DNA of 48,089 nt from Lactobacillus acetotolerans DSM 20749 = JCM 3825 (lineage in GTDB: Bacteria > Bacillota > Bacilli > Lactobacillales > Lactobacillaceae): assembly GCF_001436775.1 (NCBI RefSeq), contig NZ_AYZC01000008.1, positions 1 through 48,089 of the forward strand, in the 5' to 3' direction. Position numbers and translations under genes: made by a program. This document shows positions 82-47,458 of the stretch, in pieces; within the stretch, counting starts at the first letter, position 1, and each line of letters starts with the position of its first letter. The notes beneath the pieces were generated by a model. That model was not told the DNA's origin. It was given only the letters and a program-made list of their open reading frames with translations, and did not search any database.

Positions 82-1427
82 TTAGTTCTTGTTACCCTTC
101 TCTTGTTTGACTAGCTTATTATCATAAAGTTTAAAGAATGGATAATAAATTAGTACGGAAATAAGTAGATTAAGAAACGCAATTATGACTGCTGGGAAAT
201 TACCGCCAGTACCGAGCCAGGCACCAACTCCGACTGGCAAAACCCATGCAATAGCAGTATTAACGTACCCGACGAAACCAATTTTAATCGCAAAATAAGC
301 TACTGAAGCTAGCACCATTGGATTAATGATAAAAGGAATAATCAAATACGGGTTATAAACGATTGGCGCACCAAAGATAACTGGCTCATTAATGTTGAAA
401 ATAGCTGGTAAAATCGCAGTTTTACCAAGAGTTTTTAACTGCTTAGATTTAGCTTTAAACACCATCAAAAGAACCAAACCTAAGGTACCACCAGCACCAC
501 CAATGAATACCCACATGTTATAAAGTCCCCTGCAAAAATATTATGAGCACCATTAATATTTTCAGTTAATGCTACCAATAAAATTGGGTTGATAAAACTA
601 TTCTTAATAATCGCAGTTCCGTGAACACCAACGATCCAAAGCAAATGAATTAACAATAGAATAACCATTAACCCTGCCCATGAACCTGTCAGATTCTTAA
701 CAAAGCCAAATGGAGCAGATAATAGAGCATGCAAATCTGTATTAAAGAAAGCAAGGATTAAATCAATCGCGATCATTACAAAACCAACTAAAATTGCTGG
801 AACGAGTGACGCAAATGATCTACTAACCCCTTCTGGCACACCTTGAGGCATTTTGATAGTTACATTTTTATTTACACAAAATCTATATAATTGAACAGCT
901 AGGATTCCAGTAATAATAGAAATAAAAATTCCGACTCCGCCAAATCTTGTGATCCATCCGTTTGTTAATGAGACACCATTTACGATCGCGACACCATTAG
1001 TAAGTTTAGCGTTAGCAACTTGAGAAGCTCCAGCTTTAAAACTAATTGACGGAATAGTAAGAAGAAAAGCAAATAACGATAATAAGGAACCCGTAAATGC
1101 ATTTAACTTTTTTTCCCCAGCTCTTCGATATTCGTCAACATAATAATATCCGACTGCAAGTGAGTAATAAATAGCAATGGAACCCAGTGCCATAGTATTA
1201 CCCAAATTATAGAAATTACTAAAGCGCAGGATCGTATTCTTAAAGAAATTAGCAGCAAATGGGAAAATTTGCGGTAAGTTATTAATTATTAAAAAAATCG
1301 AAGAAACAATTGTAAAAGGAACTGCAGCTAAACTGGCATTCATTATTCCTCTAACAACCTTAGTATTTGCTACCTTATTAAGTGGAGGTAATAAATACTT
1401 TTGTAAAAAATTAAAAAACGATTTCAC
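82..1427 (-). pseudogene. PTS cellobiose/lichenan-type EIIC permease, frameshifted
   Basis: This is a membrane EIIC of the lactose/cellobiose (Lac) PTS family that would carry a beta-glucoside across the membrane during phosphorylation. The first reading frame (1427 down to about 520) starts with GTG after AGGAAGCGAG and encodes about 300 residues with a cytoplasmic N-terminus (KSFFNFLQKYLLPPL) and several hydrophobic helices. The second frame (to the TAA at 82-84) supplies the C-terminal part beginning MWVFIGGAGGTLG. The two join at GDF|(Y)NMWVFIGG, where one T appears to be missing from a T-run (plus-strand A-run 522-524). Restoring it gives one protein of about 448 residues, normal for the family. 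No EIIA or EIIB of the Lac family is adjacent. It is called a pseudogene because both halves are needed for a permease. A sequencing error at the short homopolymer is the main alternative. Confidence 0.8.
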
Positions 1428-1585
1428 TTTTATTCATCTCGCTTCCTAAAGAAATTTTAACGGTAAGAATATTATTTTTTATTTATTATCAAAATTATAT
1501 TTATTCATAAATCTGTATAGTTAAAATATATCATATTTACTCAATTATTTAGTTGATCTTGCTCATAGCAATTTTTAACGCAAAA

Positions 1586-1615
1586 AATCCTACTTCTATT
1601 AGCAGAAGTAGGATT
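1586..1615 (-). terminator. Rho-independent terminator of the beta-glucoside PTS gene
   Basis: A perfect 12-bp stem (AATCCTACTTCT / AGAAGTAGGATT) with a 6-base loop is followed on the minus strand by TTTTTT. It sits about 20 bases after the stop of the upstream EIIBCA gene. The rest of the gap between the two PTS genes (1428-1585) is AT-rich and shows no other clear feature. Confidence 0.85.
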
Positions 1616-1633
1616 ACATTGAAATGCTATAAA

Positions 1634-3509
1634 TTATTTCTTAGATTTATCTTTTTTAATTGGTACTAATGCCAACAATGCTTGATTTGTAGCATAAGTA
1701 TCAGGAGCTGGATTAACTTCTTTATAATTCTTAGAATTGGTAATAATCATCATAACAGTTGGATCATAACCATCTTTTTTAATTGCCTTGTAATCAAACT
1801 GAACAAGAGGTTGACCAACTTTAACGTGATCATTTTGTTTAACCAATTTCTTAAAGTGTTTACCGTTTAATTTAACCGTATTAATACCAATATGAATTAA
1901 AACTTCAATACCATTATTTGAAGTAATACCAATAGCATGACCTGTTGGGTAAAGTGCGCTGACTGTTCCCGCAATTGGGGCTTTAACAATATCACTTGAT
2001 GGGACTACAGCAATACCTTTGCCCATAGCACCTGAAGCAAAGACTTGGTCTTTAACATTCTTCAGAGGAACAATCGTACCTTCAACTGGTGCATAAACAT
2101 GGTTTGGATTTATCGTCTTAGGATCAACTGGTTTAACAGTTGTTTTTGCTGGTTGATCATTTTTAACACCGAAGAAATATGTTAATACAGCTGAAACAAG
2201 AAATGCAACCGCAATACCAATTACTTCTCCAACAAAACCTTTACCAAGATAAGTCGGTAAAGCTAATAAACTTGGCATGGTGAAGGAAGTAGCTACAGCA
2301 TGAGCCATAGCAGCAATAATACCACCAATTCCACCACCGATCATTGAGCAGTAAAATGGGCCCTTTAATTTCAGAGTAACACCATAAATGGTAGGTTCAG
2401 TAATACCAAACAAAGCAGTAATAGTACCAGATCCAGCTAATCCTTTCATCTTTTCATCTTTAGTCTTTAAGAAGACACCTAAAGCAGCACCTGCTTGAGC
2501 AAGAACTGCCGTAGCTGTAATTGGTAACAATGGGTCATAACCTAATTTAGCAATATTTCCTAAAGCTAACGGAAGGAAAGCCCAGTGGACACCAAAGATA
2601 ACAAATACTTGCCATAAAGCACCAACAAGAGCACCGGCAATAACTGGTACAGCTTTGTAAATTGCTGAAACACCGGTTGCTAACCAGTTACTAATGTAAC
2701 TGCCAATTGGGCCAACAACAATTAATGTTAATGGAACCATAATCATCAACGAGAACAGTGGAGTAAAGATATTCCTCACCGCTTCAGGGAAAATTTTATT
2801 CAAAAGTGGTTCCAAATAAGATAATGCCCAAACAGCTAACAAAATTGGAATAACCGTACTGGTATAAGTAGTTGGTACCACTGGTATACCAAAGAACGAT
2901 AAGGTAATATTTTTAGCACCTAATTGAACAATTGATGGGTAAACTAATGAGAGCCCCAAAGCAACCGAAACAAATTGGTTAACCTTTAATTGCTTGGCAG
3001 CTGTGAAAGCTAGCAAAACTGGTAAGAAGTAAAATACACTATCGCCAGCTGCATACCAAATCTTGTATGCACCACTAGTTGTGCTCATCCAGTGCAACGC
3101 AACAAATAAAGATAATAACCCCTTTAGAATACCAGCACCAGCAATAGCACCAATAAATGGAGTAAATGAGCCTGAAAGAAAGCCAATTAATCTATTTAAT
3201 ATATTGCCCTTCTTTTTAGGAGTAGTATCCTTCTCCTTAGAAGCTTCACTATCACTTTCTCCAAGTGGTCCAGTAATATCAACTAAAGCATCGTATACTT
3301 TACCAACAGAGTTTCCAATAACAACTTGATATTGACCAGCACTATTAACAACTGTAATAACACCGTCTAAATCTTCTATCTTTTTTGTTTGCGCTTTACT
3401 ATCATCCTTCAAGTAAAAACGTAATCTAGTAGAACAATCAATCCTAACCGATATTATCTTTACCACCAATATCGGTTAGGATTGATTGTGCCAATTTCTT
3501 ATAATCCAC
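1634..3509 (-). pseudogene. PTS beta-glucoside EIIBCA (BglP-like), frame broken near the start
   Basis: This is a three-domain permease of the glucose/beta-glucoside family. It has an N-terminal EIIB (Cys in DCSTRLRF), a central EIIC of about 10 helices containing the family motif GITEPTIYGV, and a C-terminal EIIA with the phosphorylated His in IHIGINTV. The natural start is GTG at 3509, behind GAGGTGAGA, giving VDYKKLAQSILTDIGGKDN. The frame then closes at TAG within about 20 codons, because bases 3434-3489 form a perfect inverted repeat. The remaining 600 codons are open in another frame, which can be entered at TTG 3469 or GTG 3466. Restored, the protein would be about 624 residues. It follows the antiterminator gene by 20 bases and was surely its target operon. 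A shortened EIIB lacking its first strand might still be made from the internal start, so loss of function is likely but not proven. Confidence 0.82.
3434..3489. repeat. Perfect 22-bp inverted repeat inside the EIIB coding region
   Basis: Bases 3434-3455 and 3468-3489 are exact reverse complements separated by 12 bases. The arm at 3468-3489 encodes the normal EIIB residues QSILTDI. The other arm replaces the codons expected between GGKDN and STRLRF and brings two in-frame stops. The structure looks like a near-palindrome that was converted to a perfect one by template switching during replication. Confidence 0.9.
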
Positions 3510-13962: not shown

Positions 13963-14445
13963 TTATTTTCTAACTACCTTATAACGATTACTACGATCTT
14001 CTTCAGGTGTTTCAGCTGCATGACCAACTGCAACAATTACAGCAGTCTCATAATCTGAATCGATTCCTAATTCTTTTTGTAAATCTTTGGCGGAATTAAG
14101 ATTACTTGCTGCAGCCATTAAGTAAACCGAACCAAGGTTTAACTCAGTTGCTTCTACCATCAAATTCTCTGCAGCTACTGAAGCATCACGAAGACCAAAT
14201 TGGTTATTCTTCTTTACATTAATTACGAATAACAGTGGTGCTCCATAACAAGCATTACTGGTAGCTTTTTCTATTTTAACAAGTAAATCACTATCTTCTA
14301 CAGCTGTCATCTGCATAACATCTGTTTGGTGCATGCCACATGGTGCAGCTTGAAAAGCTGCGATTAATTTATCAACATCTTCCTTAGCAACTTGTTCTTT
14401 AGTATATTTACGAACTGCTACTCTCTTTAAAATTGGATCTGTCAT
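13963..14445 (-). CDS. Nitroreductase-family FMN oxidoreductase
   Basis: This small flavoenzyme uses NAD(P)H and FMN to reduce nitro- or quinone-like compounds. Its natural substrate is unknown. The 160-residue length is at the short end of the family. The FMN-binding N-terminus is seen in RVAVRKYTKEQVAKEDVDKL, and the conserved Pro/Cys loop in AAFQAAPCGMHQTD. A helix typical of the dimer core follows (LRDASVAAENLMVEATELNLGS), and VGHAAE near the end matches the usual GyP segment loosely. The ATG lies behind GAGAAGG. It is a single-gene unit between two terminators. Its closeness to the reductase operon may be chance. Confidence 0.82.
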   Translation of the reverse strand: MTDPILKRVAVRKYTKEQVAKEDVDKLIAAFQAAPCGMHQTDVMQMTAVEDSDLLVKIEKATSNACYGAPLLFVINVKKNNQFGLRDASVAAENLMVEATELNLGSVYLMAAASNLNSAKDLQKELGIDSDYETAVIVAVGHAAETPEEDRSNRYKVVRK

Positions 14446-14540
14446 ATATATACCTTCTCTTTAAACTCTATTTATACTTTGCATATTTATTATAACAGCT
14501 TACTTTTAATTCGTATGATAAATTAAATAACTAATTATAG

Positions 14541-14624: not shown

Positions 14625-15400
14625 CTAAAAATTAGCTCTCTTTAAATATTTGTCAAAATCAACAATGTAGTAAGCTTTGCCATGAATTGCAACTGGATCA
14701 CCATAAGTTGGAATTGACTTCCCTTGTTTTAAGACTTTACGGTCTAAACGGTTACCGTATTGACTATAGATATGAGCATTGTGTGTTAACTTACGGTTAA
14801 TAGCGTCAATGTTACCAGCTGCCAAGTAATAAACATTAGCCAAAACATAGAACTTTCGACCGTTAATCGTCTTCGTTCTGTTCGTACCTACCTTTGATTT
14901 AGCTTTCAAAATCACCTGGTTAGCCCTTTGACCATTATCATCATAAAGATAAGCGTTGTGTAATAAGGTTTGTTTGTCAGAACTAGTTCCCGTATCGGCA
15001 TTAGCTTCTTGGTAGTTATTGGTTCTGGGCTGACAATTATTAATCTTTACAAAATGATTATTGCCAATAGCATAATATAACTTGCCCCGCATAATAACTG
15101 GAATACCGTAAGTCTTAATTGAATTACCGCGTTTCAATACCTGCTTATTAGCACGCTGGCCGTACTTGTTATAAACATAAGCATTATGAATCAACTTCCG
15201 AGCTTTACTTAAAACATTTCCAGCAGCCAAATAGAAACCTTGATTCAAATTAAAGAATTTACGACCATTAATCATCGTGGTGCCATAGGTATTAACTTGA
15301 GAACCAGTCTTTAAGATAACTGCATTAGCACGCTTACCTTCTTTATCATACAAGTAAGCATTGTGTTGCAAAGTCTTAACTTCAGCTGTTCCAGTATTAT
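14625..15400 (-). repeat. Four SLAP units (two pairs) at the C-terminus
   Basis: Four degenerate units of about 55-60 residues each contain HNAYxY-x-GxRA, a Lys-rich VLK segment, and a Tyr-rich second half ending in YY or FY. Units alternate between the forms ...TINGRKFY...YLAAGN and ...YGxPVxxxGKxYY. The last pair is closely matched by the pair at 47565-47960. Confidence 0.8.
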
Positions 15401-16599
15401 TGCCATTACCGTTGGCCTTCTTATCAACGATATTAACTGTCACTGGTACTGAAGTATAAGTACCGTCTGGATAAGTTACTGTAACAAAGCCTTTAGAAGT
15501 ACCTTTAGTTGAAGTATCTGGTGCTGGGTTCCAAGTATAAGTAGTACCACCTGGTAATTGGTCCTTATTCTTAATGGCATCACCAGCATAAGTTGAGTCA
15601 CCGCTTAAATCAGTTCCTTGCGGGATATCAACCGTACCACCTTGTGGGTTATACGGGTTATTATTGCCACTGCCTGCTTTAGGAACGCTGTAATAGAAGA
15701 TAATTGTTTGTTGAGGATCGACACCTGGTGTTAAAGTACGTTTCTGTTCTGCTTGGTTATCTAAAACGTAGCCTTTAGGTGCAGCTTGCTGGGGATCAGT
15801 TCCACTAGCACTAACAACATCACCATAGCGGCTACTGTTGACTGTCCCTAAAGTATAATCTGGCATATTTTTTACTCTCGTGATAGTACCAGCATAGTAA
15901 TGGATAACTTTCACCAGATCATTACTAGCGGTTATTACCTTACCAACAACATAAATAACCTTATCTTGTTCTTCAGTACCATAAGTTATAACTCCTGGCT
16001 GAATATAATCAGCTGGCATATCGTCGGGACTGGTTGCATATTCATAACCGTTTGGAATTGGATTAGCTGCAATAAAAGTTCCATTTTGACTTAAATCAAG
16101 TGTATCACCAACCCGGTTACCAGTCGGAGTAATCGTATCACCGACTTGATTGCCATTCTTCAGCTCATACTTAACTGTTACATTAGTTTCCGGGTCACCA
16201 ATTAGATAGATGGTGACCGTATTACCTGCAGCCTTGAATTCCGCTTCTTGGGGTTGGGTATTACCATACAAATCAGCAGTAGCTGTTGCATATGTATAAC
16301 CTGTCGGAATGTTAGGAGTAATATAAGTGGATTTGACTGTACTATCCGTTAAATCCAGGGGCTTACTAGTAGAACCTGGAAGAGCATCACTGGTATAAAG
16401 TACTTTATCGGTATGTTTAGCATTAACAAATTTAAGTGTGACAGTACCATCTGTTCGTATCCAGGTACCTACATGTGGCTGATTATCATCTAAAGTAGCT
16501 GTTTGAGAAATATCATTTTGCTTGTGCCAAGTACCACTAGGTAAATTAACAGTATTAGCTAATTTTGTTTTTTCACCCAAAGTCAATTTTTCTAAACTA

Positions 16600-17330
16600 C
16601 TAGCATCCAACATATCGCTCATATCAGTAACATTACTAGTATCAAAGTTAGAAATATTTAAACTTGTTAAATTTGAATCACCATTAAACATCTGTTTCAT
16701 ATTAGTTACTTTACTAGTATTAAATTTAGATACATCTAAATTAGTTAGACCACTGTCACCAGAAAACATATAACTCATATCAGTAACATCGTTAGTATAA
16801 AAATTTGAGGACAAATTCAAACTAGTTAGACTATTGTCATTAGCAAACATATATTGCATATTAATGACATGACCAGTATTAAAGTTAGAAATATCTAAAC
16901 TTGTTAAACTACTATCACCAGAAAACATACCCCACATGTTAGTAACATTATCTGTATCGAAATTAGGCAACTTCAAACTTGTTAAACTACTATCATTATT
17001 AAACATAGCCCACATATTAGTAACATTACTAGTATTAAACTTAGATACATTCAAATTTGTTAAACTATTGTCATTAGCAAACATACTTTGCATATTAGTG
17101 ACTTTACTAGTATCAAAGTTAGAACCAGAAATATCCAAATTAGTTAAAGCACTGTCACCAGAAAACATACCTGACATATCGGTTACATGACTAGTATCAA
17201 AACTAGACAAACCTAAACTCGTTAAGGCCACTGTCACCAGAAAATATATAGCTCATATCAGTTACATGACCAGTATCAAAGTTAGATAAATCTAAATTTG
17301 TTAAGCTACTATCATTCTCAAACATACTAG
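16600..17330 (-). repeat. BspA-type leucine-rich repeat block
   Basis: About nine tandem units of roughly 72 bases encode the pattern FDTSxVTNMxxMFxxDSSLTxLxxS. These solenoid repeats usually mediate binding to host or bacterial surfaces. The similar units make the block prone to slippage. One single-base insertion at 17222-17225 breaks it. Confidence 0.88.
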
Positions 17331-18347
17331 GCATACTAGTTATATTACTCGTAACCAGGTTACTTAGCCCAGTAATATCTTGTAGTGACGCTAGCTTACT
17401 ATTATTATTAGCAAACAAAAATGAAGCATCACCATTTGCTACAGTTACCCTTCCAGTAATTTTTATATGTTTGATCTCACCAGTAATAATTGATAAAAAT
17501 TTCCATTGATTATCGATTTCTCCTGCTGAAATGGTGACCGTTTGGCTATTTGCATCATAAGAAATATTGCTGTTAACTACACCTAACTGAAAGATAATAT
17601 TATGTGCAGCTTGGGCTAGTTTATTAGTAGTAATTTGATTGTTTTTAGAACTAGAATTTACATTTGTATCAACAGTAGCTGCATTGTTGGAAGTTACAAC
17701 ATTTAAAACCATTATATTTGTATTGGCTACAGCCTTATTTTTATTATCTTGATCAACATCCAAACCAGCTGCATTTGTTGCTGTTTGCATAGCATTATAT
17801 TTGTTCAGCAACTCCTTACCAGTTTGAATAGAAGTTCGCAATTCTGTTTGTTTTTCAGCAGTCATTTTGCTAAATGCTGCTGAATTGATATAAGCATTGC
17901 CTTGATTAATTGCAGCTTGCAAACTTGCTGCAGCCTTTGTTAAAGCACTTTGATTATCAGATTTAGGCATAGTTTGTACATTCTTTTCTGACGTTTTATC
18001 AACTGCATTAGTCTGATTTTTATTAGCAGCAGTATTTTTATTTTTTGCTGGCATTGTATTATTAGCTGAACCTGCTGAAGTATCATTATCTACTTCAGAT
18101 TCATTTCCTTGAACAGATGTTTGTTGTCTAGCTTCTTGTTCATTAGTTCTAAAGAATGAGGTTAAACCTGAAAAAGTCCTTAAATTATCCTGCTTCTTAT
18201 TTTTAACAGAATCAGAAATAGCACCCGTGTTACTTACACTGGTGCTATTTGTTTTATTATTTTTCTTTACTGTATTCTGATCGTTAATTGTAGAGGATGT
18301 ATTGGTATCAGAGTCTTCTGCTATTTTAGCAGATGTGGGCTTTAATA

Positions 18348-18355
18348 CCCCCCCC
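18348..18355 (-). repeat. G8 homopolymer at the signal-peptide/linker junction
   Basis: Eight consecutive Gs on the coding strand follow QNTR codons. With eight, the frame reads GGY and stops. With nine (or six), the frame continues for over 100 codons into the linker and the rest of the protein. It is a candidate slipped-strand switch. Confidence 0.8.
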
Positions 18356-18687
18356 TAGTGTTTTGGGCAGTCTGGTTTGCAGATACTATTTCTTGTTTAT
18401 CCTGTTTTACTGGATTAACTGTCTCAGCTTTAACTGATTGTGCAGTTACACATATAAAACTAAAACCTAACAGTACAGAAGCTGCACCGATGGCTAACTT
18501 ACGGATGGAGAAGCGATCCTTTTTAGATTGCATTTCCATCTTTCTTAATTTCTCGTCAAAATTATTTTTACTTAACATACATACATCCTCATATAATTAA
18601 CTATTTACATTTACAATAACAATATTAAAGCTACTAACATTTTTTGTAAACATAATACTGTTTAAATAATTGGTCTGCTCCAAAAGA

Positions 18688-18749: not shown

Positions 18750-21385
18750 TTATTTTAACTTCATTTTAACCGATACTATATCAAATGGATCAACGCTACT
18801 TGTTTGCTTCACTTTTTCTTCAAGAGCATTAACAATTTCACCATTCTCATATAGTTTCTTAGGTAATTTTATCTCATGATCAGTCATATTCTGTATCCGA
18901 ATAATATAAGAATTCGTATCATCATAAGAAGGATACAAAGCTGATACATTAATATTGGCAGGAAGATCTAAAATTGAATCTTCCTTAGGAATTGAATGAT
19001 TAATATTCGTATCCCAAATTTTATTATCTAATCGGTTAATGAAAACATTCAACGTCTGTAATTGATAAGACACAGACTGCCTCAACCAATTATTAGTTAA
19101 AACATTATTAGCTTCATAATCAAATGGTTTATCTTCTAATTGAAACGCAAAATCAAATTCGTTATGACCTAATTCCTGTGCAATCGGAGTTTTCATCATT
19201 ATATGACCTTGATTGGTCGTATCTCCCGATGCTCTACCAGGACGCCATTCTAAATTTGGTTTATCCAATTCACCAGTAGTTGCCATTAAGGTAATGTACA
19301 AGTCACCATTTTCATATTGATAAGTCTTCTGTTCTCCATCCCAAACAGTAAAGTGCTTCTCAGAATTTGTAAGGTTAACTGATTTATCAAAATTAAAAAT
19401 ATTCACCGGCTTTTCTACGAACTTCTTTTGCCAATCATCCGGAATCTTCTGATTTTTAGTACTTTGATAACCAGCCTGAATTTCAGCTAAAACAGAATCT
19501 GTTTTAACTTTTGGAGAAAACTTTAACCTTAAATTGTGTGACAAAACTTGATTATTCAAAGAAAGATGAGCTTCAATTCTACCCTCTGCATCAAGTGACA
19601 TTCTTATTTTATAAATCAAGTCTCCATATTCAGATGTGGTTGATGCTCGATCACCCAACGTCTTTGGCAGTTTTGCTGCTCCATAAACAATCATTGTTGG
19701 TAAAGATGTATTCTCAAGGGTAACAGTTTTTTGTAACGGTAAAGTTTGCACCTCATCATTGGCCAACGGGGAATAATCATAAGTATCGCCATCATTAGCA
19801 TTATCAACTAAAGATAAGATGTTTTTATAAAGTGTACCATCTACCTTCAAGTTAATTTTCCCATGATTAAAGCTTAAAATATAATCCCCATTGGAAATTT
19901 GTGCTCTATCAGATACCTGACCTACTTTTGGAAGACGTAATTCATTCTCATTATCATCCGTAACAACATTAAATACCTTGTAACCTAATGCAGATAACTG
20001 CACCTCACCACTAATTCTTAGCTTGTAATATGCAGGTTCCTTTGAATATTCTTGCCCTTTAGCCGTCATTATTAAAATATGATCCCTAAGAGGATAATAT
20101 TTTTCATTTTCAAGACATAAGTTGGTAATCCCAGCAATCTTAATATGTTTAGAATTCGTTAATAATTCGTTAATAAGGTAAAGGATTTTCTTCCTTTAAA
20201 TTCATGCGGATCGGTATTGAATAAGATAATTTGCTTAGAGGTTAACTTCAGTGATTCAGCTATCTTCTTCTCAATCATATTCTCGATGCCATCGGCTATC
20301 TCATTTGCCTCTTTATACCGGTGCAGGATATCAACGACAACATTATCTGTAACTGAGCCACCCATCGAATCATGCGCTTGGTACTCAAGCAACTTCTTCC
20401 ATAGTTTAATTAATATTCCGTTACCAATATTAATTCCAGCTTTTTTACCAATTACGACCAATGGTTCCACCCTGCGTAAGATCTTTTGCTCAAGTAAAAA
20501 GCTTTCTTTTTTCAGCTTATATCTAACCGCACCAATTGTTCTATGAACCCGTGCATAAGTTGGTAATCTAATTTCAACCTGATAATCAGGCAATTCATTC
20601 TGTTTTCCTTTAAGCAGTTTTACAAAATTTGGATACGTGTCGATTACAATTTGGTTGGCACTAATTTCATTGATTTTTTTAACTGTTTTGAAAATATTCT
20701 TAACGATATTCAATTGATCCATACCGGAAGGAATCAAAACATCATTATGGTTACCATGTTCAGCTTCAAATTTAATTGCAGGATCAAGTCGCTTAGTAAC
20801 CATTTCTTTTAAATGTTTCTGATCATCTGGAGAAATTTTTCCCGTAAAATAACCGAACGGAAAATCGATTGCTACAACTTTCTTATTAGCCAAACCTTTC
20901 CAATTAAAGTAAACAGAATCAGTGATTTTATCAAAATTTATTCCTCTCCAAAAGATAAAATTATCAATACCAACCTCATTTAATAAAGTTGGCAGTTGCG
21001 CATTAAAGCCAAAAGTATCTGGAAGATAACCAACCATCATTGGATTACCATACTTCTCTTGAGTTTCTTTAATACCAATCACAAGGTTACGAATAATAGA
21101 TTCTGCATCAGGATTCAAAGCATCGGTTTGCGTATACCATGGACCAACAAATAACCTCTTTTCACTGACTAACTTTTGAATTCTTTTAACAGCTTCCGGA
21201 TGAATCTCCACGTAATCATCTACAATAGAAGTTTGACCATCTAAGCAGAAATTTGCTTCATGATTTTTTTCTAATTCATCTAAAATTTCGGTAAAAACCT
21301 GTTCACTTAGAACTTGGGCGTCCATGGTAGTAAAATACCATTCTCGATCCCAGTGCGTATGATTTACTAAATGTGCTTTAACCAT
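18750..21385 (-). pseudogene. mngB: GH38 alpha-mannosidase (mannosylglycerate hydrolase type), broken by an 11-bp duplication
   Basis: In working form this cytoplasmic glycoside hydrolase would cleave the phosphorylated mannosyl compound imported by the adjoining fructose-family PTS, as MngB does in enterobacteria. The N-terminal half has the GH38 zinc site HTHWDREWY, the nucleophile in LPDTFGF and the conserved YQAHDSMGGSV. The other half is the beta-rich C-terminal domain. The two are out of frame because TTCGTTAATAA occurs twice in tandem at 20155-20176. Removing one copy joins FTLLTN to SKHIKIAG and gives about 874 residues, the normal size for the family. The start ATG lies 3 bases after the EIIC gene. 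The residual 408-residue N-terminal product keeps the catalytic motifs but lacks the C-terminal domain and is probably inactive. Confidence 0.86.
20155..20176 (-). repeat. 11-bp tandem duplication that breaks the GH38 gene
   Basis: TTCGTTAATAA is present at 20155-20165 and again at 20166-20176 without spacing. One copy would keep the reading frame open through the whole gene. Such a duplication can be lost again by replication slippage. Confidence 0.93.
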
Positions 21386-21388
21386 TAA

Positions 21389-22427
21389 CTATTCCTCCGC
21401 ATCTTCAACTTGATGGTGAGTAACTTTCTTTAAAAAGTTAACCATTAAAGCTGTAACTACGGCACCGATAATAATCGATAAACCATATAGCCAAATATTA
21501 GAAGCAAATGGTAATGCCATTAATGTTGCCATTGCAGTCTTTTGAACTACACCAAATGCTGCATTGACAGCACAAGCTGCAGCTGTTCCAACCATAATAC
21601 TTGGAATAACTCTCAGTGGATCTGCTAAAGCAAATGGAATTGTACCCTCAGTAATACCAAAGATACCCATGATTGCTGCAGTACGACCATTTTCAACTTC
21701 TTCTTTAGAGTATAATTTTTTATCTAAAAGTGTAGCTAAAAACATACCAAATGGTGGAATAGCAATTGCTAAAAACATTGCGGTACTTGGCCCATAAACA
21801 CCTTCTGCATAACAGTCAATACCAAAAGTATAAGCAACTTTGTTAACGGGACCGCCCATATCGAAGGCCATCATTGCTCCAATAATTACTGCTAACATTA
21901 CGCTGTTAGTACCTGTACTCATACCTTTAAGCCAACTAGTCAATCCAGCAGTGAATCCTTTTAACGGAATTCCTATTACATACATGTACAGCAGTCCAAC
22001 AACTGCAGTAGATATCAATGGAATTAAAATCAAGGATTTAACTACAGATAATTTCTGCGGAACGGGCATCTTCTTCAACCATTTTGTTAAATATCCAACT
22101 AATAATCCAACGATAATACCGCCAATAAAACCTGTTCCGGACTGTTGTGCAATTAAACCAACGATAAATGCAGGTGCAAGTCCGGGGCGATCAGCAATTG
22201 AAAATGAAATATATGCCGCAATTATAATCGGAATAAAACCTAATCCCGTTGTACCAAGTAACTTTACATGACCCATGACCCCAAAACGAATTATTCGAAA
22301 CATTTGTGCCACCACAAATTGTCGCTAAGGACATAAGTAATCCAGAGGCAGTTACTAGTGGGATCATATATGAAACACCAGTCTGCAAATGGTTACCTAT
22401 TTGTTTCATCTCACCTTTAAAAGACAT
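21389..22427 (-). pseudogene. PTS fructose-family EIIC (MngA-like), frameshifted
   Basis: This is the membrane channel subunit of the mannosylglycerate-type PTS. The N-terminal frame (from ATG 22427) encodes MKQIGNHLQTGVSYMIPLV and LATICGGTNV. The second frame encodes GTTGLGFIPIIIAAY, SIADRPGLAP and the remaining helices to the stop at 21389. The switch falls at a GGGG run (plus-strand CCCC 22279-22282) at the codons FWG|VMG, equivalent to one extra G or two missing bases. Restored, the protein has about 346 residues, normal for a stand-alone fructose-family EIIC. It is flanked by EIIB (2 bases) and the GH38 gene (3 bases), so the operon is tightly packed. The break removes the first helix from the rest of the protein. 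Confidence 0.84.
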
Positions 22428-22429: not shown

Positions 22430-22753
22430 TTATTGCTTCTTTCCATTAACTAAATCTTCAGCTTTCTTAATTGCTGAGTCTCCATCTTTGATGACTTCGG
22501 AAGTACCAATTTTTAACACTTTTTTACCAACAAAACGTTCCTTTCCAGAAACACTGGTGTCCACAGCAAAAATTACAACGTCAGCATCTTCAATATCTTG
22601 GGAAGAAAGTTTGTTTTCAATTCCCATTGCTCCCTGCGTTTCAACTTTAATTTCGTCGCCTTCTTTTTTAGCATATTTTTTCAAATTTGCGGCTGCCATA
22701 TAAGTATGGGCAATGCCTGCAATACAAGCAGTAATAGCAACAATTTTAGTCAT
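22430..22753 (-). CDS. PTS fructose-family EIIB
   Basis: This 107-residue cytoplasmic phosphocarrier passes phosphate from EIIA to the sugar at EIIC. The phosphorylated Cys is at residue 9 in ITACIAGIAHTYMAA. The usual loop is CPTGIAHT, so Pro and Thr are replaced here, but the Cys and the GIAHT part remain. The domain length is normal for a single fructose-family EIIB. The ATG follows TTAGGAGAAAATC, and it sits between EIIA (12 bases) and EIIC (2 bases). The reading frame is intact, but the transporter it serves is broken. Confidence 0.88.
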   Translation of the reverse strand: MTKIVAITACIAGIAHTYMAAANLKKYAKKEGDEIKVETQGAMGIENKLSSQDIEDADVVIFAVDTSVSGKERFVGKKVLKIGTSEVIKDGDSAIKKAEDLVNGKKQ

Positions 22754-22765
22754 AATGATTTTCTC

Positions 22766-23218
22766 CTAATCTTCTAATAAATTTAAAATATCTTTTGTTT
22801 TATTTGCTTTATTCAATTTAGAAACAAAGCTATCATCCATTAATTTCCCTGAAAGATGTGCCAACATTTTTAAATGTTCTTTATCACCGTTATTCGTACT
22901 AACCGCCATTAAAAAAATCATGGTAACTTTTGATCCATCAAGTGAATTCCATTTTAGTGGGGTCTTATTTTTAGCAAAAACCATCGACGGTACCTTAATG
23001 GCAGTACTTTTACCATGTGGAATGGCAATATGCTTACCAATACCAGTGGTTGTCATAGATTCCCTCTTCAATACATCCCTAGTAAACTTATCAGCATCAG
23101 TAATAATTCCATTTTTGTAAAGCACCTCCGATAGCTGTGCTATTGCATCTTCACGACTTTTAGCATCGAGATTCAACACAATATTATCTTTCGTTAAAAA
23201 ATTATTCTGCTTCTCCAT
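22766..23218 (-). CDS. PTS fructose-family EIIA
   Basis: This cytoplasmic phosphotransfer protein of about 150 residues takes phosphate from HPr on the His in IAIPHGKST (about residue 65). The fold segments expected for the fructose/mannitol EIIA family are present (FLTKDNIVLNLDAKSREDAIAQL at the start, TMIFLMAVS in the core, HLKMLAHLSGKLMDD near the end). The second ATG (23218) is chosen because the AGAAGGTGA site lies 6-8 bases from it, whereas the first ATG at 23224 would be almost on top of it. The start overlaps the stop codon of the regulator gene, so translation is coupled. The gene is intact. Confidence 0.88.
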   Translation of the reverse strand: MEKQNNFLTKDNIVLNLDAKSREDAIAQLSEVLYKNGIITDADKFTRDVLKRESMTTTGIGKHIAIPHGKSTAIKVPSMVFAKNKTPLKWNSLDGSKVTMIFLMAVSTNNGDKEHLKMLAHLSGKLMDDSFVSKLNKANKTKDILNLLED

Positions 23219-25114
23219 TAGCATTCACCTTCTCTCAATAGCGCAATAACTTTTTCTACTGAATTACTTTCACTAATTCTTTTAAGCAATTTTTTATCCT
23301 CTAATATATTGTCAAAATAACTATAAATTTCTTCTATATGTGGTTTGATTTCTTGATTTAGTGCTAAGAAAAAAACAATTTTAACCATTTTGTCTTGCCA
23401 TTCGATCTTTTTCTTATCTATATAAATGGCTATTACTGGTTTATTAACATACCTAATGGGCGCGTGTGGAACCGCAACTATATTGATTGCTGTACTTGCC
23501 ATTTCTTCACGTTTTATCGCTGCCTGTCCAATTCCCGTTCGAACAAATCCATCTTTATAAAGTGCATCCGTTAATTTCTTAATTACTCGATTTCTAGTGA
23601 TTTTCTTGTCATTAAGAAATATATATTTAGGATTAATTAATGACATGAAAGCTTCGGGTTTGGCTTTGCCATTATTAAATTTAGAAATCACACCATTTAT
23701 CTTTCGAATTCCGTTTTCATCTAAGAAGGGAGAAACAACTATCAAAGGAACGTTTGGTAATTTGATATTAATAGTACTAATCACCAAATCCTCACTTACC
23801 GGCTTTTCTTTGATTTCTTGGACTGACACAACTCGAGAAATTTTAATCTGATTAGAAAACTGTTTCTTAATTCTCTGCTCTAAAAGTCTTGCTGTACCAA
23901 GACCGGTACTGCAAACCAAAGCCACCGTCATAACTTTATTATTTCTTTTGTTAAAAGCTTCAATGTGAAGAGCTATGTAAGCCAGCTCGTCATCATTAAG
24001 AAATATTCCATAAGCATTTTTAATTTTTATTCCTAAATCAACCGCTTCGTTGTATGCCCTAGTAAAATATTTCTTAATTTTGGATGTATATGGATTCCTA
24101 ATTGTGAGTCCTAGTGACAATCTCTTTAGAGCTGGAATTAAATGGACGGTTAAATTTTTGATCAAAGTAGAATCAAATTGTTTTAAACTAGCCGTTAAAA
24201 AGAGTGAAACATTATTATTTTGTAATTGTTTATCTTCATCTTATTCGTTAGTAGTTAAAGAACTTTGAATAGCAAGAATATGAATATTTAAGTATTGTTT
24301 CTCATCTTTGGGCAATTTAATTCCAAATTCTTTTTCTATAACCTTGATTAAAATAAGCGTGTTTTTTTCTAATACTGAATTTTTGGAAGAGAATTTTATA
24401 ACTTCATTCCTCTTTATTCGTTCAATCGCAATAGTTAAGTGAATGGCAAGTGATTGATATTCATAATCACTCATTTTTAATCCAGAAATCTTTTTAAACT
24501 GATTTAATGCATTTAATACTTTAATCAAAGTTTCCGGGCTAAAAAAGACACTTATATTTGTAGATACGTCTTGAGCATCTTTCATTTGTAATTGCCGTTC
24601 TTTATTTAAATAATCATCTCCCCAATAAAGACTTATTAATTCAGACATTAATCTCCTCTTTTCTCGTTCGCTAGCTACAATCACAATTCCTTCTTTCGTA
24701 GTCAGCAGAGAAGCTCCAAATTTATTTAAAAATTCCTTAACAGCTTTCAAGTTGTTTTCTAAAGTACTCCGACTAATAAAAAAACTTATCTGCTAATTCT
24801 TGAACTGTAATAGCTTTGTTAGTTATTAATAATTCAGTCAAAAGATCTAAGGAACGTTGCTTAGAAATATTAAATTTCAAAATATTATTTTCTTGAATAG
24901 ATTCACTTAATTTAGAGATATTACCTTCAAAATAGATCCCAACGTTGCGTTTTCTTATTAAGCTAACATCAAAATGTTCAACGTAATTCGCAATATTATC
25001 TAAATATTTAGCAATAGTCTTTCTAGATTTACCTATTAAGTTAGCAATATCTGAATAATGGACCTTACTAGAATTAAGTATTGCTTCAATAATTTTAATT
25101 TCATCATTATTCAT
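23218..25114 (-). pseudogene. PRD-containing MtlR/BglG-type activator of the mannosylglycerate operon, two lesions
   Basis: Joined, the gene encodes about 631 residues: N-terminal HTH domains (DIANLIGKSRKTIAKYL), two PRDs (His in LAIHLTIAIER, LNIHILAIQ and YIALHIEAF), a Gat-type EIIB domain (VALVCSTGLGTARLLE) and an EIIA domain (His in VAVPHAPIR). Such proteins activate PTS operons according to phosphorylation state. Two separate lesions are seen. A T7 run (plus-strand A7 24778-24784) has one T too many and ends the first part at DKFFY. An in-frame TAA at 24241-24243 follows LTTNE; the frame stays open on both sides of it. The ATG at 25114 is chosen because GAAGTGAG precedes it and the cre site lies just upstream; an ATG at 25150 is possible. 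It is the first gene of the operon. Confidence 0.86.
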
Positions 25115-25135
25115 TTCGCTCACTTCTTCTCTTCC

Positions 25136-25149
25136 TGAATTCGCTTTCA
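25136..25149 (-). promoter_or_regulatory. cre site upstream of the mannosylglycerate-type operon
   Basis: On the minus strand TGAAAGCGAATTCA matches 13 of 14 positions of the CcpA consensus TGWAANCGNTNWCA. It lies 22 bases before the preferred start of the regulator gene. The promoter itself is not clear in the short space after the terminator at 25184. Confidence 0.7.
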
Positions 25150-25183
25150 TTGTACATAAGATTTAACTCCCCACATATAGAAA

Positions 25184-25249: not shown

Positions 25250-25534
25250 TTATGCATTAGCATGCTTAACTGCGTCGTTAACCGCGTTCATAATTACTCG
25301 ACTAATTTTAGAAGCACCTGACACTGCATCAACTTGTGGAATGACTTTTAATGCGTTTTCAGCAACGTCCTCACTTTCATTTTGATCTATAATTTCAACC
25401 TTTTTGATGATTCTATTATTTTGATCATAAGTGACACGAACTTTAATTTGGTCAACCATCCTTTCGTTCAATACTCCTAAATATTGATTTTTAGCTAATT
25501 TTATATTCTCTTTATTATGATTTACTAAACTCTT
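25250..25534 (-). pseudogene. C-terminal remnant of an FMN-binding fumarate-reductase-like protein
   Basis: About 94 codons are open from 25534. They encode SLVNHNKENIKLAKNQYLG, then an FMN_bind domain ending VDAVSGASKISRVIMNAV. The first stretch matches the hinge before the FMN_bind domain of the reductase at 9200-11017 (LVNTNQERQIKLGPDQYLG), so this is the tail of a third paralogue whose 500-residue flavin domain has been lost. It follows the EIIBC gene by 23 bases. A 73-residue product could still be started at TTG 25471 behind TTAGGAG, giving a small free FMN-carrier domain, but no conserved start region argues for that. The flavinylation motif itself is intact. Confidence 0.8.
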
Positions 25535-32834: not shown

Positions 32835-32855
32835 TAAAAATAAGGAGGTTGAATT

Positions 32856-34211
32856 ATGAATTTCTTAAAACCACATATTGCTAAGAATAAAGTACCAGCG
32901 AGCAAAGTTGACAGTACTTATAAAAGACTTCGACTACAAGTATTTATAGGTATTTTCATAGGTTACGCAGGTTACTATTTAGTACGCAACAATTTTTCAT
33001 TAGCTATTCCTGGTTTAACACTCCAAGGTTTTACTAAAGGTCAATTGGGTTTAGCATTTTCAGCGGTTTCTTTAGCCTATGGAATTAGTAAATTCGTAAT
33101 GGGTACTGTATCAGATCACAGCAATGCACGAATCTTTTTACCCTTAGGATTAATCCTAGCCAGCATAATAAATTTAGCTTTAGGACTTATTCCTGCCCTA
33201 ACTTCCAGTATTACAGTCATGTTTATTGTTCTTTTCATCCTTGGTTGGGTCCAAGGCATGGGGTGGCCTGCTGGTGGACGGGTATTAGTCCACTGGTTTT
33301 CAATCAATGAGCGTGGTAGTAAAACTTCTGTCTGGAATATAGCCCATAACATTGGTGTTGCTTTAATGGCACCAATCGCTACCGCTGGTATTGCTTTAGT
33401 CGGCAGCTACTTTGCCTTTACTGGCATAAAGTCATACAACGGCGCATTTTTACTACCAGCAATCTTTGCTATTATTACAGCGATTCTTGCTTATTTAGCA
33501 ATCCGTGATACGCCATAATCAGAGGGGTTACCACCAATTGAAGAATATCGAAATGATTATCCAAATAAGAGTCACAAACTAGTTGAAAAAGAACTTTCTA
33601 CCAAAGATATTCTTTTTAAGTATGTTTTAAATAATAAGTGGGTTTGGATAATTTCCATTGCTAATGTTTTCGTTTATTTAGTTCGCTACGGAGTTGAAAA
33701 TTGGGCCCCAGTTTACCTAACTGAGGTACAACATATCACTTTATCTTCATCAGGCTGGTCATACTTCTGGTACGAAATGGCTGGTATACCCGGAACTCTA
33801 ATAGCAGGTTGGATTTCCGATAAAGTCTTTAAGGGACGTCGTGGACCCGCTGGTTTCTTTTTCATGCTCGTAGTTACCGTATTTGTTTATATTTACATGC
33901 ATGCTACCAATATGTTTATGATTAACTTCTCCTTAATTATGATTGGTTTCTGGATTTATGGTCCCGTTATGCTAATCGGTTTGCAAGCTTTGGATTTAGT
34001 ACCTAAAAAAGCAGCCGGTACTTCTTCTGGATTAACAGGATTGTTTGGCTATCTATTTGGCTCTGTTGCAGCTAATGCTATTTTAGGCTGGACAGTTGAC
34101 AAATTTGGCTGGCAAGCAGGTTTCTATATTATTTTAATATCTTGCATCTTGGCAGCTGTCCTGTTTGCCTGCACTTGGAAAGTCAGAGGACAAGAAGAAA
34201 ATGCCGTTTAA
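32856..34211 (+). pseudogene. glpT: Glycerol-3-phosphate transporter with an internal nonsense codon
   Basis: This is a 12-helix MFS organophosphate:phosphate antiporter of the GlpT/UhpT family, 451 residues if read through. The first 220 residues contain GYYLVRNNFSLAIPGL and the signature region GMGWPAGGRVLVHWFS. The reading frame then meets TAA at 33516-33518, directly after IRDTP. It stays open in the same frame through [50 protein letters not shown] and on to 34211. Glutamine is expected at the stop position ([13 protein letters not shown] in known GlpT), so a single C-to-T change (CAA to TAA) explains the break. It is divergent from glpK-glpO-glpF and belongs to the same glycerol phosphate theme. 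Suppression is unlikely; the gene is probably inactive. Confidence 0.9.
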
Positions 34212-35055: not shown

Positions 35056-37053
35056 TTAATATAAGAAATCAATTTGTTGCTGGAGCAGCAGCTGGATTCT
35101 TAACTTCCTTTTGAACAGCGATGATTTCTTTACCAACCGTTGTTTCACCAGCTTGAGTTGGCTCATGTTCTTGTAATCTTTCGAGTTAGTAATGATTACC
35201 ATAACTGTTGGATCTAGTTGATGCTTCTTGATAACATCGATATCAAAAGTACCTAATAATTGACCAGCTTTGACTTCCTGACCAATTTTAACTTTGGTAT
35301 TAAATCCTTCACCTTTCAATGAAACAGTATCAATTCCCAAGTGGATTAAAATTTCCATTCCATTTGGAGTCTTTAAACCATAAGCATGACCAGTCTTTGC
35401 AACTACTGACATTTTCCCATCATTAGGAGCATAAACACTGATCTTGCCACTACCAGATGGCTGAATGGCAATACCTTTACCCATCATCCCTGATGAGAAG
35501 ACCTGATCTTTAACAGTCTTTAATGATACGGCTTCACCAGCTACTGGTGAATATACAGCATCGTCTTTTACTTCTTTAACTGGTACACCTTTAGGCTTAT
35601 CAGGTTGCAAAACTTCTTTAGGAATTGCAAATGCATTTGTTAAAACAAAAGCAAGAATAACTGTCAAAATTGAAACGATCGTATAAATTATTAAATCTCT
35701 AAAGTTATAAATATACATTAAGTAAGATGGCAATACAGCTAAACCATATGAGTTAGCAGCAACCCTGAAGATACTCAAAACTGCAGCGCCAATGCCAGAG
35801 GTAAGTACAGTTACCATTAACGGTTTCAAATTATACCGAATTAAAACACCAAAAATAGTTGGCTCAGAGACACCAAACAGTTGAGAAGCCATGGCTGACA
35901 TTGAAGTCTCTTTGGCTGACTTAGATTTTGCCCTTAAGAAGATAGCTAAGGCAACACCCAAGTTAGCAAATCCATACATAGCTTCCAAGGTAATTAATGG
36001 GTTTAAGTGCGTGGCAGCCAAAAGTGAGGTTTCGATGGCAATCATCATCTGGTGAATACCAATAACAACCATTAATGGGTAAGCAGCACCAATTAAGAAG
36101 CCACCAATACCATATGGGATGTGGATGACACCTTCGACGGCGGCAAGCAAGAGGTTTTCAACCCAATGAACAATTGGTCCAACACCTAAGACCATGATTG
36201 CAAATGTAACTAGCAACGTTAGAAATGAGGTCATAATCTGCTCAATCACATCAGGCATGTGTTTCCTGAAGAAGAGCTCGGATTTTGCACCAATATAACC
36301 GGCTACTAAGGCCGTTAACACTGATCCTTGGGCACCAATTACGAGAATAACCCCGAATAATTTAATTGCCTTTGCCGTTCCGTTGGCTACCGAATAAGCA
36401 TTTGGCAGCAGTGGTGAAACCAGCATTAATCCTAAAACAATCCCGATTATGGGCGTTCCCTTAAAGTACCTAAAGGTTGACCATACGATCAATGCAGGCA
36501 AGAATGAGAAAACAGTATCAGTTAAAACAGAAACAACCGTTAATAAGTTAGCCGGTATCTGACTGGGTACCATTCCAAATAATTTCAATACCTGCGGATT
36601 AGTAAAAGTACCCTTTAATCCAAGGAATAAACCAGTTGCGGCAATTACCGGAACAATAGGAATAAAGATTCCAGAAAGCATTGCCATGAATCTTTTACCC
36701 CAGGATTGGTTGGCTTTATCTTTATCTGAGTCATCACCTTGGGCATCATCCTTACCGTAAATAGTGTTAACTTCCTTACCGTAAATAGTGTTAACTTCAT
36801 GCAACTTATCGATTGCCGCATAAACATCATTAACAATCCCAGTACCAAAAATTACTTGGTATTGTCCAGAGCCATAAAAGACCCCTTTAACATCTGGTAA
36901 ATTTTGAATAGCCTTGTCATCAATCTTCTTACGATTCTTGACAACAAATCTTAATCTAGTTTCACAGTGAGTTAACGAAACAACATTATCTTTACCGACA
37001 ATATCGATTAGTTGTTTGGCAACGTCTGTGTAATCCTTCTTTTTACGAGCCAT
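35056..37053 (-). CDS. PTS glucose/alpha-glucoside-family EIIBCA permease, tail frameshifted
   Basis: This permease has EIIB (residues 1-90, Cys in LTHCETRLRFVVKN), EIIC (about 125-470, with VIAATGLFLGLKG and GVSEPTIFGVLIR) and EIIA (about 500-640, His in LIHLGIDTVSLKG). All catalytic residues are in frame. The last part is shifted: after TNSKDYK a G seems missing near 35170-35173. The natural tail would read KDYKEHEPTQAGETTVG and end at the TGA at 35069-35071, about 661 residues; the shifted frame runs to 35056. The change lies beyond the EIIA fold and may be harmless. The B-C linker contains an 8-residue duplication (EVNTIYGK twice). It follows a GH13 glucosidase by 2 bases. The substrate is probably an alpha-glucoside such as isomaltose or trehalose. 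Confidence 0.87.
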   Translation of the reverse strand: MARKKKDYTDVAKQLIDIVGKDNVVSLTHCETRLRFVVKNRKKIDDKAIQNLPDVKGVFYGSGQYQVIFGTGIVNDVYAAIDKLHEVNTIYGKEVNTIYGKDDAQGDDSDKDKANQSWGKRFMAMLSGIFIPIVPVIAATGLFLGLKGTFTNPQVLKLFGMVPSQIPANLLTVVSVLTDTVFSFLPALIVWSTFRYFKGTPIIGIVLGLMLVSPLLPNAYSVANGTAKAIKLFGVILVIGAQGSVLTALVAGYIGAKSELFFRKHMPDVIEQIMTSFLTLLVTFAIMVLGVGPIVHWVENLLLAAVEGVIHIPYGIGGFLIGAAYPLMVVIGIHQMMIAIETSLLAATHLNPLITLEAMYGFANLGVALAIFLRAKSKSAKETSMSAMASQLFGVSEPTIFGVLIRYNLKPLMVTVLTSGIGAAVLSIFRVAANSYGLAVLPSYLMYIYNFRDLIIYTIVSILTVILAFVLTNAFAIPKEVLQPDKPKGVPVKEVKDDAVYSPVAGEAVSLKTVKDQVFSSGMMGKGIAIQPSGSGKISVYAPNDGKMSVVAKTGHAYGLKTPNGMEILIHLGIDTVSLKGEGFNTKVKIGQEVKAGQLLGTFDIDVIKKHQLDPTVMVIITNSKDYKNMSQLKLVKQRLVKKSSLFKRKLRIQLLLQQQIDFLY
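36751..36798 (-). repeat. 24-bp in-frame tandem duplication in the EIIB-EIIC linker
   Basis: The 24 bases at 36751-36774 are repeated exactly at 36775-36798, adding a second EVNTIYGK to the linker. The reading frame is kept. Confidence 0.93.
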
Positions 37054-45049: not shown

Positions 45050-45079
45050 CAAAAGCGCTACTGTATATTTACAAGTTAA

Positions 45080-45173
45080 TAAGACGATGACGTTCGTCTT
45101 AAAAATTGCTAAGCAATTTAATGACGCCTATTGCACAAACTCTTATAGAGCCCAATGTAATAGGCGTTTTTTT
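45080..45173 (+). promoter_or_regulatory. Three-hairpin leader ending in an intrinsic terminator before the P-type ATPase
   Basis: Three hairpins follow in a row: TAAGACGA/TCGTCTTA (45080-45101), AAATTGC/GCAATTT (45103-45119) and ACGCCTATT/AATAGGCGT (45124-45167), the last followed by T7. The ATPase ribosome site GAGGTGAT begins 13 bases later. It may be a metal- or pH-responsive attenuator of the ATPase gene, or simply the terminator of the GT8 gene. It was not matched to a known riboswitch class. Confidence 0.55.
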
Positions 45174-45198
45174 GATGTTAAATTTTGAGGTGATCAGC

Positions 45199-47458
45199 AT
45201 GCTAGAAAAAGAAGATAAGATTCAGGGATTAACCCGAGAAGCAGCAAAAAACAAATTAATGGTTGATGGGCCTAACGAGGTAGCAGAACCAGAATTCAAT
45301 TTTTATAAGGAAGTACTAAAACGACTTTGGGAGCCGTCAGCCTGGATCCTTGAAGTAGCCCTCTTAATTGAATTTGTCTTAGGAAAATATATCCAGGCAT
45401 TCTTTGTGGTGGCAATGCTCTTGTTTTCCGCATTCACCGGAGCTATTCAGTCAAGACGGGCCAACACAGTTCCTGCACTCTTTAGCACACAAATTAAATC
45501 CAACTGCTTCAGTTAAGCGGTCTGGTAAGTGGATTAAGGTTCCTGCAAGAGAATTAGTCGTAGGAGATATAATCAGCTTAAAGCAGGGTGATATTATCCC
45601 AGCTGATGTAAAAATCCTAACCCACCCTATTTCCGTTAATGAAAGTAGTATTAGTGGCGAGGCAAAAGCTGTCACCCATTCGGTAGCTACTGCTGCTTTT
45701 TCAGGCACCGAGATTCTAAGCGGCCATACTTTAGCAATCGTTACCAAGACTGGTAAAAATAGTCGTTCTGGAAAAACGGTTAGCCTAATCAATAAATCAT
45801 CTGCTCCTGGACAATTACAAATTCTCTTAGGCAAAGTAATCGGCTATTTAGCAATTCTTGATGCTATCTTGGCAATTATATTAATTATTGTGGCGATAAT
45901 TCGGCACGAAAATTTAATTAATATGTTGCCATTCTTAGCAATGCTTTTTATTGCGACCATTCCAATTGCAATGCCCTCAAGCTTTGCAGTTGCTAATTCA
46001 GTTGAAGCCAAAGAATTAAGTAAACATCATATCCTAGTCAGCGATTTGAGCGGAATTCAGGAGGCTGCCAATTTAAACCTATTATTAGTAGACAAAACCG
46101 GTACAATTACAGCTAATAAACCTGAAGTAGTCCGTTTTTATAATCTAAGTCACGTTAACACCAGGGATGCGATTCAGTACGCTGTCAGTGTAACCGATCG
46201 GCGTAATTCTAGTGTGATCGATCTGGCCATTTTAAAATATGCAAAACAACAGGGAATCGAGTCTCTAAACAAAACTAACTTCCAGCCGTTCAATCCCGAT
46301 ATAGGATATTCAGAAGCAACAATTAATGATAAAACTATGGTGAAACTTGGATCCCTCAAGAGATTAAGCAACATAGCCCACTCACCTATTAAATTACCAG
46401 AAAAGATCGATTTTTCTTCTGGGCGAACAGTTGCCGTGATGGTAAATGGTAAAATTATTGGTATTTTTATTTTAGAAGACCAACCACGTCCTGATAGTGC
46501 TGCAGCTATTAAAAAGATCCAAAGTCGTGGTGTAAAAGTCATCATGCTAACCGGTGATAATCAAAAAACTGCGGCTGCCGTTGCCCAAGAAGTTGGGCTT
46601 AAGGGAAAGGTAGTTTCGTATTCTGATTTAAAAAACGTGCAAATTGACCAATTAGCCGGTATTTCTGATGTTATTCCTGAAAATAAGCTAGAAATGGTTA
46701 AACTAATGCAGAAACAAGGCTATATTGTAGGGATGACCGGTGACGGTGTTAATGATGCAGCTGCATTAAAACAAGCAAGTGTGGGAATTGCTGTAAAAGA
46801 TGCCGTTGATTTAGCTAAAACTTCTGCAAAAATGATTTTAATGAGGGATGGATTGATGCCAATCATTGAAATCTTAGACAGTGGTCACCGCGTTTATCAG
46901 CGAATGTTAACCTGGACAATTACTAAATTGTCTCGTTCAGCTGAACTTTCAATGTTGCTAGTCTTTGGCTACATTATCTTCCACTTCATGCCATTAGGAC
47001 TAAACGCGATGATTCTAGTAGCCATACTCAATGATTTGGTAACTTTAGTATTGGGTACCGACAATACTGTCATTACTCATAAGCCTGAAAGTTGGAATTT
47101 ATTTAATTTAAGTAAAATTGCGATTGTATTAGCTATTGGTTGGACAGCAGTTGGATTCGCTATCCTTTACTATCTAAATGCAAATAACTTCTCAAGCGGT
47201 CAAATAAGTTCTGCGTTATACTGCTATCTAATATTCAGTGCAATGCTCACCATTTTAATGACGCGCACTAAAAAGACATTCTGGTTAGGTAAACCAAGTA
47301 AAGCCGTAGCCACAGCAATTATTCTTAATTGCATTATTACCATTACCCTTTCTCTCACTGGTTGGGGGATTACTTCTATCAGCATGAAACTAATCTTAAC
47401 GATTGCCTTCATTTCAGTACTCACAGCTTTAATATTAACTGTCATTCGTAAAATATAA
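45199..47458 (+). pseudogene. P3A-type cation (proton-efflux-like) P-type ATPase, frameshifted
   Basis: Joined, the gene encodes about 752 residues of a plasma-membrane H+-ATPase-like pump. The first frame (ATG 45199 behind GAGGTGATC) gives LTREAAKNKLMVDGPNEV, two membrane segments and ends SNCFS. The second frame carries the actuator (SSISGEAKAVTHS), the membrane motif ATIPIAMPSSFAVAN, the phosphorylation site LLLVDKTGTITANK, the hinge MTGDGVNDAAALKQA and the C-terminal helices. The switch lies near 45486-45493 in CACACAAA: removing one base (a C) gives FSTKLNPTASVKRSGKW. Without it the pump is split between its second helix and the actuator domain. The transported ion could be H+, Mg2+ or another cation; the DKTGTI variant and P3A motifs suggest H+. 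A sequencing error remains possible. Confidence 0.85.

Follow-up and report, generated by a model that had tools for sequence, protein, structure and literature searches.

The sequence analysed here (the window) is an entire contig of 48,089 nucleotides (C102; NZ_AYZC01000008.1) from the draft genome of Lactobacillus acetotolerans DSM 20749 = JCM 3825 (G000), a small, AT-rich genome of 1,583,937 bases in 122 contigs that is 99.82% complete and has SlpA domains among its gene content. The window carries genes for sugar uptake by the phosphotransferase system (PTS), for metal transport and for a large surface protein with a coding poly-G tract, and several of these genes are interrupted (Table 1). 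An initial annotation had listed 12 lesions in this stretch. Raw sequence was inspected at each of the 12 items, and 2,347 predicted proteins from loci of relatives (one genome per species) and of the genome itself were aligned to the window. Eleven of the 12 hold on the raw sequence and the alignments: ten are disruptions, spread over eight genes, and one is a truncated reductase remnant with an FMN_bind domain. The mixture of lesion types that had been described was likewise confirmed, with homopolymer slips, an 11-bp duplication, a perfect 22-bp hairpin and two nonsense codons. Each affected gene carries one or two lesions, and the sequences flanking the breaks are 45–81% identical to the best relative or paralog.

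Table 1 Coordinates of the interrupted genes and associated features in the window
Feature	Position	Strand	Observation
PTS EIIC	82..1427	-	Frameshift within 513-537, which includes a GGGG run; Pfam PTS_EIIC pieces
Perfect 22-bp inverted repeat, 12-base loop	3434..3489	.	In the early part of a BglP-type EIIBCA gene (about 1634-3509)
Large YSIRK-signal surface protein gene	14625..18578	-	BspA-like DUF285 repeats, Rib, four SlpA stretches; not a single open frame
Frameshift in DUF285 repeat region of surface gene	17210..17242	-	Alignments of the L114, L122 and L160 proteins change frame here
Poly-G8 tract on coding strand of surface gene	18348..18355	-	About 75 codons in, just after the YSIRK signal peptide
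GH38 alpha-mannosidase / mannosylglycerate hydrolase-like gene	18750..21385	-	Split; 875-residue intact relatives L178/L179/L198/L199
PTS EIIC, same operon as GH38	21389..22427	-	Frameshift at 22273-22275
EIIB (22430-22753) and EIIA (22766-23224) of GH38 operon	22430..23224	-	Both frames open
PRD/EIIA transcriptional activator	23218..25150	-	Frameshift and in-frame stop
FMN_bind-domain remnant of flavin reductase	25250..25534	-	Pfam FMN_bind, E 6.5e-10
glpT-like major facilitator superfamily transporter	32856..34211	+	In-frame TAA at 33516-33518
PTS EIIBCA	35056..37053	-	B, C and A domains all matched
Cation P-type ATPase	45106..47458	+	Frameshift near 45471; N- and C-terminal parts in different frames

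The operon at 18750-25150 encodes the PRD activator, EIIA, EIIB, EIIC and the GH38 protein. Its GH38 gene contains an 11-bp tandem copy at 20155-20176, the sole exact tandem of 11-15 bp in the window; the two frames in which the relatives align meet there and switch at 20168. The EIIC gene of the operon is spanned in two frames by a paralog from the same genome (L196 14653-15684, 343 residues, 75-77% identity). Judged against its own paralog (L196 11946-13847, 633 residues) and against L189-L191, the activator gene switches frame at 24779-24783, within a T7 run, and carries a second lesion, an in-frame stop at 24241-24243. A collinear paralog of the operon lies on contig C40 of the same genome, where the frames (633, 150, 104, 343 and 889 residues) are open; the two copies share 67-70% DNA identity, with about 5.1 kb aligned of the 7.0 kb compared. 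A broken operon with an intact paralog on C40 provides a clean link between redundancy and decay.

The remaining transporter genes were resolved in the same manner. Intact P-type ATPases of 755 residues from relatives align to the window gene in two frames, and an uninterrupted homolog that is 52% identical is present in the same genome (G000:C29:30059-32038). Matches to this ATPase were found in 71 of 120 genomes, the own genome included, and among the best matches those in G059 (internal TAA), G011 (frame shortened) and G001 (gene divided between two contig ends) have no long open frame. For the EIIC gene at the beginning of the window, an intact protein (L162, 451 residues, 80-81% identity) aligns in two frames that meet within the region of the frameshift. 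The glpT-like gene has an intact 462-residue relative in G068, and at 63% identity the alignment runs straight across the TAA codon. The FMN_bind domain of the reductase remnant also forms the end of both intact reductases in the window.

The BglP-type EIIBCA frame is broken by the inverted repeat immediately before the conserved CSTRLRF cysteine motif, and for three relatives of this protein from genome G046 the alignment begins only near the EIIB cysteine. Inverted repeats, homopolymer runs and matches to G046 proteins were counted in a 903,583-base sample of the own genome. This sample holds 10 perfect stems of at least 16 bp, and none is wholly inside an open reading frame of at least 120 residues. 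The hairpin was also considered as a genome-spread repeat and rejected as such; the sample contains no second copy of its 12-base core. Quasi-palindrome mutation is a hairpin-templated change, and we infer an origin of this kind for the EIIBCA lesion, which shares with it a perfect 22-bp stem and a short loop, sitting where the relatives cease to align. It differs from quasi-palindrome mutation as otherwise known in that the mechanism is only proposed here, from the sequence, and no close ortholog gives the earlier sequence.

The twelfth item, a frameshift at 35170 in the tail of a second EIIBCA gene, was not confirmed. The catalytic domains of this protein are complete, EIIA is covered over profile positions 3-127 of 127, and the claimed frameshift would touch the last residues only; its relatives are only 27-31% identical over the whole protein. 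The genes that had been described as clean are so. Against its relative (79%), copB is uninterrupted, with the first 38 residues of the relative unaligned, and both reductases are uninterrupted as well (70% to a 384-residue relative, and 83%). Each of copY, glpK, glpO, glpF, ppsA and rarA is a single open frame with a near-complete family match; copY had no match to the relatives' proteins that were aligned to the window. A DASS transporter was aligned to its relative without a break (90%). Comparison of positions 14000-38000 with plasmid sequences gave no match.

The control consisted of 1,177 proteins predicted from 1.6 Mb of the relative G046 and aligned to the own sample, window included. 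Loci flagged by tblastn were inspected for the position of the break; start-codon choice mimics breaks in raw stop counts. The probes recovered 406 distinct own loci, seven of which were flagged. Two of the 12 loci in the window were broken, and of the five flagged among the 394 loci outside it, two or three were broken after inspection (Fisher p 0.005-0.008 against the two of 12). Two candidates, L215 and L101, were rejected as start-codon artefacts. A frameshift at L209, outside the window, looks real, and L063 has lost 34 of 209 residues at its C-terminus. A second frameshift that looks real lies in a gene common to G046 (L202; G000:C33, 1986-2007), at an A10 run that is the sole A/T run of at least 10 in the own sample. 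In the reverse direction (own proteins on G046), five of 408 loci were flagged, and the most fully inspected of these, a LysR gene, switches frame.

The gene loss in the window is real and is ordinary pseudogene formation in accessory genes. Eight genes are interrupted relative to intact homologs by lesions of diverse kinds, an intact C40 operon and an intact ATPase homolog stand elsewhere in the genome, and conserved genes have been spared, those common to G046 being nearly clean outside the window. The account that best covers these observations, and which we regard as very probable, is a recent decay of dispensable and partly redundant sugar-uptake, metal-transport and surface genes through independent small replication errors, with selection keeping the conserved genes. 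On this account the contig is part of a reduced Lactobacillus genome and is rich in accessory genes. The homopolymer slips, the 11-bp duplication, the change presumably templated by the hairpin and the pair of nonsense substitutions would have arisen independently as small replication errors, redundancy or a changed diet may have relaxed selection on the lost genes, and conserved genes would have been held intact by selection. Recent decay of sugar-uptake and surface genes had already been proposed in the initial annotation, and its breaks stand against relatives and paralogs; it overlooked the intact paralogous operon and the recurrence of the poly-G tract, and the dairy or host restriction that it mentioned stays conjectural. 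Some points weigh against recent decay as framed here. A close intact paralog is shown for the broken operon and the ATPase only, and not for the EIIC gene at 82-1427, the EIIBCA gene or glpT; a search of the own genome for another glpT gave none at E 1e-30. The comparison of two of 12 with two or three of 394 rests on two window genes, and the accessory genes sampled outside the window were PTS EIIC loci and the YSIRK family only.

Other sources of the breaks were weighed against this account. Sequencing or assembly errors, chiefly homopolymer miscalls, might be suspected in a draft of 122 contigs where several of the sites are homopolymers (G4, T7 and G8), where an N gap covers the tract region of the surface copy on C47, and where assembled G-tract lengths can be wrong, as one report indicates (PMC9187656). 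However, an 11-bp duplication, a perfect 22-bp hairpin and two nonsense codons are atypical of miscalls, and in the same assembly the genes common to G046 are broken at only two or three of 394 loci, a bias that errors would not show; we therefore consider this source decidedly unlikely. A mutator lineage without mismatch repair, which had been suggested as an alternative history, fares worse still and is very improbable: some lesions are homopolymer slips and the frame of L202, outside the window, shifts at an A10 run, but mutS (870 residues) and mutL (631 residues), the repair genes that were examined, lie side by side on C1, intact and with their Pfam domains, and the breaks avoid conserved genes and are of mixed types. 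The excess of broken G046-probed loci in the window over the rest of the sample would suit a special local hotspot of decay, yet the window is rich in accessory genes, and damage is seen in such genes elsewhere as well: seemingly damaged EIIC loci amount to two of 10 outside the window (G000:C89:2550-3404, with an internal TAA, and G000:C57:1399-2262, with the start of the domain missing) against two of five inside (Fisher p 0.56). The C46 and C47 copies of the surface gene are likewise interrupted, and a local hotspot is in our judgement unlikely.

The lesion at 18348 in the surface gene requires separate treatment. At the G8 length the frame closes after 78 residues. Runs of G become scarce with length in the own sample (ten G6, one G7 and two of at least eight), and genome-wide there are four of at least eight, on C46 (G11), C71 (G9), C86 (G10) and in the window (G8). 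Three of these four occupy the same place, about 75 codons into paralogous YSIRK surface genes, with shared flanks; the frame is shut with G8 in the window and with G11 on C46, and open with G10 on C86. The C86 copy (L237) has a Pfam YSIRK_signal match and is open across the tract to the contig end, over 1,287 residues. The G9 tract on C71 (G000:C71:9318-9326, L236 419-427) directly precedes a start-like site, AAAAAAATG, about 160 bases from a contig end. The tract had been read as a plain slip; it is real, but two paralogs have a poly-G run in the corresponding position, one with its frame open, which points to an unstable and possibly reversible tract rather than plain decay. A coding homopolymer tract of at least eight, at the same site in homologs, of variable length and with open and shut frames, is the arrangement of a simple-repeat contingency locus, and the window tract is a candidate for slipped-strand phase variation.

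In other genomes, tract positions were related to YSIRK matches by comparing coordinates by eye. Some G8 run is present in 39 of 75 genomes (own included). YSIRK-family matches were found in 39 other genomes, and in one of these (G016) a tract of at least G8 lies just downstream, for which about 0.01 chance coincidences would be expected (0.011, a rough figure). There a G10 tract stands about 50 bases past the matched N-terminus, where the open frame is only 85 residues, with a further tract, G9, some 300 bases upstream. In G007 a G8 tract precedes a homolog whose frame spans 1,718 residues, at a distance of about 200 bases. For eight YSIRK proteins of G046, the 400 bases that follow the motif contain no run of more than four G. 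The draft G066 gave 100 overlapping G8 matches, the sole listed one being at a contig end, and these are perhaps poly-G sequencing artefacts.

The G8 tract of the window most likely began as a phase-variation tract common to paralogous YSIRK surface proteins, the second frameshift in the gene coming later, and the paralogs that share the tract, which is the new element here, are plausibly a phase-variation family. On a fuller reading, this YSIRK family was or still is switched by coding poly-G slippage soon after the signal peptide (one copy open, two shut, and the same arrangement in at least one other Lactobacillus species), with 18348 representing the OFF state of a copy that was later lost for good; we put the chances of this about even. 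Several findings weigh against switching and favour instead a chance slip with no role in it. The window gene has its second frameshift at 17210-17242, the C46 copy (L213, G000:C46, 14850-15300) has a frameshift in the signal peptide besides its G11, and in the C47 copy (L089, about 14200-14880) there is an in-frame stop, with an N gap where the tract would lie; several members of the family have decayed. Two further own fragments of the family (L104 and C70, the latter on a contig that ends 62 bases past the match) are without the tract, in 38 of the 39 other genomes where the family was matched no G8 run follows just downstream, making the trait uncommon, and short N-terminal frames occur without any G8 run in G073 (94 residues), G045 (121) and G057 (113). 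A chance slip nevertheless has to accommodate the same tract site in three paralogs with lengths of 8, 10 and 11 and differing frame states, against the steep drop in G-run numbers otherwise, the lack of G runs above 4 after the YSIRK motif in G046 and the short frame at the G10 tract of G016; it is a tentative explanation, with something like a one-in-three standing in our view. That the tract acts by transcriptional slippage or programmed ribosomal frameshifting and not by switching of the DNA would agree with long homopolymers being known slippage sites, as stated in PMC3711429, but tract lengths vary between the paralogs, as for an unstable DNA tract, and such a mode of action seems improbable. 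If switching by the poly-G tract is real, automated annotation would label switchable lactobacillus surface proteins as pseudogenes, and strain differences in surface behaviour could stem from an unstable tract rather than from gene content.

The glpF-glpO-glpK genes and glpT (28066-34211) look rare in the genus, with glpT found in one of 74 other genomes at E 1e-30, and a search with glpO, from which the own record and nearly identical ones may be missing, returned 48 loci from other genera. Horizontal gain of these genes is possible, judging from their distribution. In G068 (L200 5868-5878) a G11 tract lies about 100 bases upstream of glpT, between TTGCAG and TACTAT at a 17-base spacing, and adjoins a cre-like site (read by eye). 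By consensus motifs, it looks like a promoter-spacer phase-variation tract.

Homopolymeric tracts in prokaryotes have reportedly been the subject of a published study. A literature search on poly-G, homopolymer and slippage phase variation, covering part of the matching papers, found no paper on poly-G switching in Lactobacillus. The decay of transport and surface genes has a parallel in L. helveticus DPC 4571 (PMC3542869): of the PTS systems and cell-wall-anchoring proteins that L. acidophilus is predicted to encode, half have been deleted there or persist only as pseudogenes. The two cases are alike in their frameshifts, nonsense codons and truncations and in the loss of PTS, transport and surface genes, and they differ in that lesions of a single contig with controls are described here rather than a genome-wide count. 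For the surface gene, the closest comparison is with Bifidobacterium breve UCC2003, in which a G-tract acts as an ON/OFF switch in sortase-dependent pilin genes, and annotated or assembled tract lengths may be wrong relative to culture (PMC9187656). Mixtures of tract lengths were measured there and tied to pilus expression, whereas the present data are assembled lengths in paralogs only, and the proteins are pilins there and YSIRK-signal proteins here, with SlpA domains in the window copy. Common to both is a coding G-tract in a surface protein of a Gram-positive commensal, placed early in a reading frame with a secretion signal, where the length of the tract sets the frame.

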